DNA of 64,000 nucleotides, from assembly GCA_943331445.1 (NCBI GenBank), contig CALQLO010000006.1, forward strand, positions 1 through 64,000. The letters are read 5' to 3'. Under the pieces are notes generated by a model that saw nothing but the letters and a program-made list of their open reading frames with translations, did not search any database and was not told where the DNA came from. A program made the translations under genes and the position numbers. Shown here piece by piece: positions 50,398-53,314 of the stretch; within the stretch, counting starts at the first letter, position 1; every line of letters starts with the position of its first letter. Source of the DNA: Akkermansia muciniphila. Its GTDB lineage: Bacteria > Verrucomicrobiota > Verrucomicrobiia > Opitutales > UBA953.

Positions 50398-52359
<1,962 letters not shown>

Positions 52360-52368
52360 CGGGTTTAA

Positions 52369-52396
52369 GCGGTTGACGGTAAGCGGTTGGCGGTTG
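52369..52396 (+). repeat. left heptamer array (4 units)
   Basis: Four head-to-tail heptamers, GCGGTTG, ACGGTAA, GCGGTTG and GCGGTTG. It lies just after thiC and is the inverted counterpart of the array at 52478-52512. Confidence 0.8.
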
Positions 52397-52477
52397 GGGT
52401 AAAACCCAAACCCAGTCGTCTTGCCGTGACTCTGTCTCCTAGCCCTATGTTTGAACCCGCCTCGGTACTGTCTTTGC

Positions 52478-52512
52478 CAACCGCTATCCGCTAACCGCCA
52501 ACCGCTGACCGC
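52478..52512 (+). repeat. right heptamer array (5 units)
   Basis: Five head-to-tail heptamers, CAACCGC, TATCCGC, TAACCGC, CAACCGC and TGACCGC, ending two bases before the likely methyltransferase start. The two arrays are complementary, so the transcript could form a long imperfect stem around an 81-base loop. Confidence 0.8.
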
Positions 52513-52513
52513 T

Positions 52514-53314
52514 TTGTCCTCTTCCAAACAATCCGCCACGGCGTGGTACGACTCCCCGTTGTATTACGACATGGTCTACGCGGACTATACGCCGAAGGAG
52601 ACCCGCTTCATCGAGGGTATCATGAAGAAGCATGGGCCGAAGCTGGATGGTCCGATGAGGGTCTTCGAGCCGGCCTGTGGCTCCGGAAGATTGTTGGAAT
52701 CACTTTCCGTCCGCGGCCATGTCGTTCATGGGTTTGACTTAAATCGCCATCAAGTGGCCTTCGCGAAGGATCGACTCAAGGCGAAAGGGCTCAAGGGCAG
52801 GGTGTGGCGCGATCGCCTCCAGGATTTCAAGGTGCCCAAGGCGGCACGTTACGACGTCGCTCACTGTTTTGTGAGTACCTTCAAGTATATCGACACGGAG
52901 GCGGGTGCCGTCCGTTCGCTTCGTCGGATGGCCAAGGCGCTTCGCCCGGGTGGTCTGCTCCTGCTCGGGCTGCATCTCACGGATTACAAGCACACGCCGC
53001 CCGACCATGAACGATGGATCGGGCGCAAGCCAGGTATCCGCGTTGTGAGTGATACTTGGTCTGCTCCTGCCAATCGAAAGTCACGCACCGAAGCGATGCG
53101 GACACGCATGCGTATCACCGAGTCCGGCGTCACCCGAACCGAGGAGACACTCTGGAATTTCCGAACCTACTCACCCCGGGAAATCCGTGCCTTGCTTGCC
53201 CGCGTGCCTTCGCTCGAACTCGTCGTCTGCCATGATTTTCATTACGACTTAGCTTCCACGCGGAAGCTTGATCTTGAGTACTCCGACGTGATTTTGGTCC
53301 TGCGGCGAAACTGA
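52514..53314 (+). CDS. class I SAM-dependent methyltransferase
   Basis: A 266-residue methyltransferase with a TTG start, chosen because the upstream in-frame region (from 52451) is made by the heptamer repeats and is not family-like. Motif I is VFEPACGSGRLLES, preceded by WYDSPLYYDMVYADY as in the Methyltransf_25/YcgJ-like group. ALRPGGLLLLGLHL is the post-motif. Substrate unknown; the family includes small-molecule methyltransferases. Confidence 0.82.
   Translation: MSSSKQSATAWYDSPLYYDMVYADYTPKETRFIEGIMKKHGPKLDGPMRVFEPACGSGRLLESLSVRGHVVHGFDLNRHQVAFAKDRLKAKGLKGRVWRDRLQDFKVPKAARYDVAHCFVSTFKYIDTEAGAVRSLRRMAKALRPGGLLLLGLHLTDYKHTPPDHERWIGRKPGIRVVSDTWSAPANRKSRTEAMRTRMRITESGVTRTEETLWNFRTYSPREIRALLARVPSLELVVCHDFHYDLASTRKLDLEYSDVILVLRRN

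Follow-up and report, generated by a model that had tools for sequence, protein, structure and literature searches.

Facing heptamer arrays between thiC and a methyltransferase gene in a freshwater verrucomicrobial genome, a candidate gene-boundary element

The window analysed here is a 64,000-nucleotide stretch of contig CALQLO010000006.1 (assembly GCA_943331445.1), from a draft genome of the verrucomicrobial lineage UBA953. It contains thiC (50473..52359, + strand), encoding a protein of 628 aa that matches the Pfam family ThiC_Rad_SAM with 627 bits. Nine bases past its stop (52359) begins a left array of four heptamers with the G-rich strand on + (52369..52396; GCGGTTG ACGGTAA GCGGTTG GCGGTTG). 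There follow a spacer of 81 bases (52397..52477), opened by a small palindrome, GGGTAAAACCC (52397-52407), that is common to several congeners, and a right array of five heptamers with the G-rich strand on - (52478..52512; on the + strand CAACCGC TATCCGC TAACCGC CAACCGC TGACCGC). The last base of the right array falls one base short of TTG 52514, which is in frame with the downstream methyltransferase gene (52514..53314, + strand; Pfam Methyltransf_25, 47.6 bits). Both arrays were recognised by sequence, TRF and shuffle test, and TRF assigns period 7 to each; the initial annotation's picture of inverted arms of four and five units with an exact seven-base period around an 81-base spacer is thus borne out.

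The same annotation held that the arrays decide the start of the next gene. That they bear on it stands; the longest-ORF start, TTG 52451, which would place the right array within the protein, does not, given the start codons of congeners. Across congeners TTG, GTG or ATG occupies the position equivalent to 52514, and those without arrays have ATG there, so that the arrays are most likely non-coding and the ORF from TTG 52451 is probably not the gene. From this comparison TTG 52514, which lies outside the arrays, is the most likely start of the methyltransferase. The position of array edges matters to gene calling, since longest-ORF starts can extend into arrays.

With at most one mismatch allowed, the pattern CGGTN3CGGTN3CGGT is found five times in the window, each time in the arrays of the thiC gap; shuffled windows averaged 0.51 matches and never exceeded 3, none of 100 reaching 5. 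A two-unit pattern with up to three mismatches was unspecific in the window (33 matches against 21.4 expected). No Rfam family matched the window at gathering scores, and the thiC spacer has no second copy in 354 kb of stretches from its own genome. The search for further copies that had been proposed with the initial annotation proved productive: the three-unit pattern has 68 matches in the 2.41 Mb draft genome of this freshwater verrucomicrobial, against 1 for the reversed pattern, and it recurs in relatives, with 0 to 67 matches per genome in 36 congeners. In 18 of 20 same-order genomes it was absent; one had a single match and one had 12, by other units. By sequence, two of the stretches compared agree at 98.8% and 99.3% with a MAG, uncultured Opitutae bacterium Umea2p1_bin-0805, and one agrees at 92% over 815 bases with Opitutia bacterium UBA953, so that the genus is probably that of UBA953. 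The order relative G056 carries CGGTNNT-type heptamer arrays at C182:14721-14766 and also on C146 and C152. By a strict definition the own-genome stretches hold 83 arrays, mostly of 3-4 units (GCGGTTR hereafter), and the same heptamer and layout appear in relatives of Steroidobacter.

A survey of tandem periods from 4 to 15 found 11 arrays of period 7 in a set made up of the window plus 20 more own-genome stretches, mostly on L339, and 14 in 17 stretches of congener G021. Every other period gave at most 4 arrays in either set, the multiple 14 excepted (6 own, 11 in G021). The own-genome stretches of this survey were taken at round coordinates clear of those fetched around GCGGTTR arrays, and this family is consequently scarce in them; those of G021 come from contigs that the GGGGRTR scan described below had named. 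No period-7 array was found in 180 kb of congener G060 or in 140 kb of two order relatives. One own-genome contig, C10, bears a cluster of AAGAACN / GTTCNTN heptamer arrays, some in inverted pairs (L339:4683-10191).

Own-genome neighbours no more than 400 bp apart comprise 14 pairs that face each other, with G-rich strands inward, 9 that run the same way and none back-to-back, so that close opposed neighbours face in 14 of 14 cases. Among the matches listed by a GTDB scan, 115 stretches contain 19 facing pairs, 0 back-to-back and 4 the same way. Two of these at least 19 facing pairs (L106, L183) come from a near-copy of our genome; 8 of the 19, among the matches listed, come from Povalibacter, Steroidobacter and Peristeroidobacter, which we take to be Steroidobacteraceae (Gammaproteobacteria). 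One contig from the scan, L082 (CALPIW020000214.1), has a facing GCGGTTR pair and is titled Polynucleobacter meluiroseus; as it matches our genome over 1.4 kb with 87% identity, it is probably mis-binned.

The outer edges of the arrays lie at gene ends. Boundaries were taken from a simple codon-score gene caller rather than a trained gene finder, and the count covers arrays outside L039-L044 and L047. Read along the G-rich strand, own-genome arrays whose upstream boundary is a stop lie at a median of 14.5 bases from it (14/24 within 20), and an upstream start lies at a median of 57 bases (2/25 within 20); the right array of the window enters this count at a wrong distance (934), because the caller missed the methyltransferase start at 52514. 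None of 50 downstream boundaries is within 20 bases. In Steroidobacteraceae (28 arrays in 18 stretches) the upstream medians are 7 bases for stops (n=13) and 13 for starts (n=13), with downstream medians of 118 (n=17) and 91 (n=9, one within 20).

Not all arrays conform to this layout. Outside close facing pairs are 55 of the 83 own-genome arrays, 30 of them on seven contigs, L039-L044 (C38, C49, C54, C63, C65, C67) and L047. There the GCGGTTR arrays form part of a larger repeated intergenic module and lie, nearly all, on a single strand of each contig (L040 6/6, L041 4/4, L042 5/5, L043 3/3, L044 4/4, L039 5/6), while gene direction varies and contig ends often fall at the module. An integron attC reading of these one-way arrays was rejected, since no integrase exceeded the cut-off in the draft genome (best piece 79.9 bits, cut-off 265). 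In 18 viral stretches, among the matches listed, the 12 close neighbours are without exception same-way, with no facing case. The viral contigs L195 (IMGVR_UViG_3300009934_000009), L187 and L189 each carry several GCGGTTR arrays, with close neighbours in the same direction.

The facing pairs are predicted to be able to fold into long, imperfect hairpins. All 14 own-genome pairs that were folded form arm-arm stems of 13-25 pairs, with z from -2.4 to -11.0; the window element has z -3.25, with 2 of 200 shuffles equally good. A stable hairpin directly 3' of the thiC stop codon is what a Rho-independent terminator of thiC would offer, yet we consider that reading very improbable. In none of the 14 pairs is the right arm followed at once by four or more T (L056 has TTTT seven bases beyond the stem), and the scan found no terminator-like site at the arrays. 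Furthermore, spacers run from 52 to 217 bases, and a single base separates the element from the next start. The initial view that this is no standard terminator therefore survives.

Among thiC alleles, z lies between -2.4 and -7.5 for 12 with GCGGTTR arrays, between -1.7 and -4.5 for 5 with GGGGATR arrays and between -1.4 and -4.1 for 8 that are array-free, an overlap between array-bearing and array-free alleles that leaves the separation unclean; the mixed-arm allele of G009 (z -0.21) folds no better than shuffles. Nor do arms fit their own partners better than those of other pairs. Across 15 pairs spanning less than 900 bp, own partners gave -33.3 kcal and permuted partners -34.0, with 4719 of 5000 permutations as low, and when arms were swapped among 12 thiC alleles the own mean equalled the swapped mean (2468 of 5000 as low), although such a test has little room, the arms being already ~93% complementary. 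Arm complementarity follows from the common repeat unit.

Intergenic position, many copies and inverted pairs are also typical of REP and REPIN sequences, whose arm is self-palindromic. The GCGGTTR arms share the first three properties but are tandem heptamers rather than palindromes. Neither do Y1 transposases follow the arrays, so that a REP/REPIN system with its RAYT was rejected, in keeping with the initial annotation: among these draft genomes, G012, G022, G030, G035 and G057 have arrays with no Y1 match, and G001 and G029 have Y1 matches with few arrays. A miniature mobile element (a REPIN or MITE) bounded by the arrays would explain dispersed inverted ends whose copy number varies among congeners. 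We regard it nevertheless as most unlikely, Y1_Tnp showing no link and 8 of 15 spacers matching only themselves in the 354 kb of own-genome stretches, which argues against a shared element body; of the remainder, the spacer at L045:7550 has two weak matches and six others share partial short repeats. In addition, at thiC, the one locus compared in detail, the gap differs between the window genome (G000) and G057 by replacement, not by an insertion, and the G057 site is not empty. The spacers of L055, L056, L057, L061 and L066 contain other short dispersed repeats, making such gaps mosaics of repeat families.

The same gap holds different sequences in related genomes. Among 30 congener thiC loci, 12 have GCGGTTR arrays on both sides, 8 are array-free with another short sequence in the gap, and 5 have GGGGATR arrays opposite a C-rich arm of TATCCCC type. 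G009 combines a GGGGATA left arm with a YAACCGC right arm, G014 shows the right array alone, at a contig end, and G060, G005 and G036 fall outside all these classes. The initial annotation had suggested looking for length variation, and this was found: G002 has two left and four right units at thiC, G057 has none, and the left arrays 5' of tgt in G057 and G000, described below, differ by one unit. A tree built from the ends of the flanking genes (28 rows, with 11 of 25 inner branches open and a bootstrap that had not settled) makes the array-free G057 the sister of the window genome (100/99). Five changes are needed on this tree for GCGGTTR arrays, three of them forced by well-supported branches, and a single one for the GGGGATR group (81/69), which G009 adjoins.

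This turnover extends across whole genomes. GGGGRTR arrays reach 9-47 matches in G009, G017, G020, G021, G023, G032 and G033, and at most 1 match in each of the remaining 35 of 42 genomes; a reversed-pattern control is useless for this unit, as the reversed pattern itself matches like arrays. The same seven genomes have 2-8 GCGGTTR-type matches, against 0-4 for the reversed control. Mixed states occur in G021, where GGGGATR faces YAACCGC at L350 and units are mixed inside one array at L346. By eye, the gap 3' of a GDSL lipase gene contains GCGGTTR arrays in some congeners and, in others, arrays of GAGTATN, GAGTACN, GGGGGTT or the hexamer GGGACA; the gap 5' of tgt likewise holds GCGGTTR arrays or other repeats.

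At tgt the left array of G057 is one unit shorter than that of G000, while all other 100-base windows are 100% identical for more than 1 kb on each side, which points to gain or loss of a whole unit. At thiC the flanks of the same two genomes are 99.0% and 99.3% identical and the gap 47%. Conversely, G000 and G016 at tgt have flanks at 77% and 91% around a gap at 95%, and two consecutive 100-base windows are fully identical. We compared 655 genome pairs over three loci (325 from 27 of 30 thiC loci, one with an empty gap; 120 from 16 of 30 GDSL loci; 210 from 21 of 30 tgt loci). In 7 pairs the gap exceeds both flanks in identity by at least 4 points, and an unlike gap (<65%) lies between flanks of at least 95% in 1. 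Five of the seven alike gaps (two in the GGGGATR group at thiC, three at GDSL) could reflect conservation instead, and the two at tgt, which both have G016 as partner, are likely one event. As array-free gaps lie outside this comparison, no excess of exchange is claimed; a few cases support exchange of the whole gap sequence between species, apart from the flanking genes. Such behaviour resembles horizontal regulatory transfer, in which non-homologous intergenic sequences alternate between the same genes and move apart from their flanks (PMC9944727). In the accessible part of that paper the process is described within species; here it would act between species-level lineages, and on repeat arrays.

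The strongest rival to a functional reading is that these are neutral repeats, originated by polymerase slippage, spread by recombination and tolerated in gaps. The arms lack pairwise co-variation, several unit families coexist (at the GDSL and tgt loci and in the period survey), presence differs between sister genomes, and the accessible text of PMC4692102 attributes comparable repeats, by citation, to slippage at 7-nt units. Slippage alone, however, does not predict that close opposed arrays only ever face (14/14; 19/19 among the matches listed), that their edges lie within ~15 bases of stops or that each lineage has one heptamer, and we consider neutrality a possible explanation but a doubtful one. 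An alternative that we judge unlikely is a lineage-specific protein that binds the heptamer at gene boundaries, as an insulator or transcription block, orientation being kept and folding incidental. It would account for one heptamer at many loci of a lineage, changed as a set in another, for the fixed orientation of arms not matched to each other, and for the tolerance of mixed arms (thiC of G009; L350 of G021). Against it, no candidate protein emerged, Y1 transposases being excluded only loosely in these draft genomes, and the thiC gap can lose every array, as in G057.

The closest published kind is the G-rich intergenic heptamers of Rehm et al. 2015, GGGAATC in Xanthomonas and GGGGA(C/T)T in Nostoc (PMC4692102). 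According to the accessible text of that report, the Xanthomonas arrays have mostly four units, vary in length, lie nearer to the ORF upstream of them (on average 28 nt, as opposed to 160) and form 70 facing pairs in Xcc and 75 in Xac; the authors saw no regulatory role and cited slippage at 7-nt units as explanation. The GCGGTTR arrays agree in being multicopy tandem intergenic heptamers, near the upstream ORF and in facing pairs, so the layout itself is not new. New here are a unit with GG but no GGG tract (GGGGATR, the unit of other congeners, does contain GGGG), the phylum, and lineage-specific turnover, in which related species carry different heptamers in one gap. Lacking a GGG tract, GCGGTTR does not allow the G-quadruplex idea proposed for Xanthomonas to be transferred directly, and makes a canonical G-quadruplex unlikely as a general answer. 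The TAACTGA heptamers of Beggiatoaceae are also intergenic, multicopy and at gene edges but, in the accessible part of that report, are direct repeats 5' of start codons with one inverted case, and are not G-rich (PMC4679880). A text search for four 13-letter dimers of GCGGTTR returned only work on S. aureus cell division, unrelated as judged by title and the start of the abstract, and a literature search on Verrucomicrobi repeats yielded, among the papers listed, no mention of UBA953.

The reading that we prefer, with confidence somewhat short of an even chance, is that the thiC gap holds one of many gene-boundary elements, each consisting of two inward arrays, whose heptamer is specific to the lineage (GCGGTTR in this case), around an otherwise variable spacer. 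At the level of sequence, the period of seven, the facing-only close opposed pairs, the outer edges at gene ends and the many copies are established, as are, from comparison of genomes, whole-unit length change between sisters and the fact that one gap may contain unlike heptamers, or no array, in related species. RNA across the gap would form a long, imperfect hairpin whose leading arm, from whichever side it is transcribed, is the G-rich one; this would mark the end of the upstream message and hide the next start codon from read-through RNA, with slippage lengthening and shortening the arrays. In favour of a boundary hairpin we count copy number, facing-only pairs, stop proximity, arm-arm stems, the one-unit change, the states and exchange of gaps, lineage-specific heptamers and the Xanthomonas layout. 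Counted against it are arms that fit their own partners no better than others, the G009 mixed allele that folds no better than shuffles, the partial folding of array-free alleles, the 55 of 83 arrays that lie outside close facing pairs and the same-way viral arrays, the array-free thiC gap of the nearest relative, G057, and the failure of the Xanthomonas authors, in the accessible text, to find a regulatory role (PMC4692102).

Rather improbable, though of wider reach, is that an undescribed process writes inward heptamer arrays at both edges of a gap, the heptamer being specific to the lineage and rewritable genome-wide and arm by arm, here as in the Steroidobacter relatives and Xanthomonas. 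If such a process exists, its trace would be that related species, the GCGGTTR and GGGGATR groups, hold different heptamers in the same gaps. The heptamer repeats of Xanthomonas, Nostoc and Beggiatoaceae have been reported without established function, and a genus whose members carry different heptamers, or none, at one and the same gap offers a natural comparison for the role of such arrays and for the way in which they spread.
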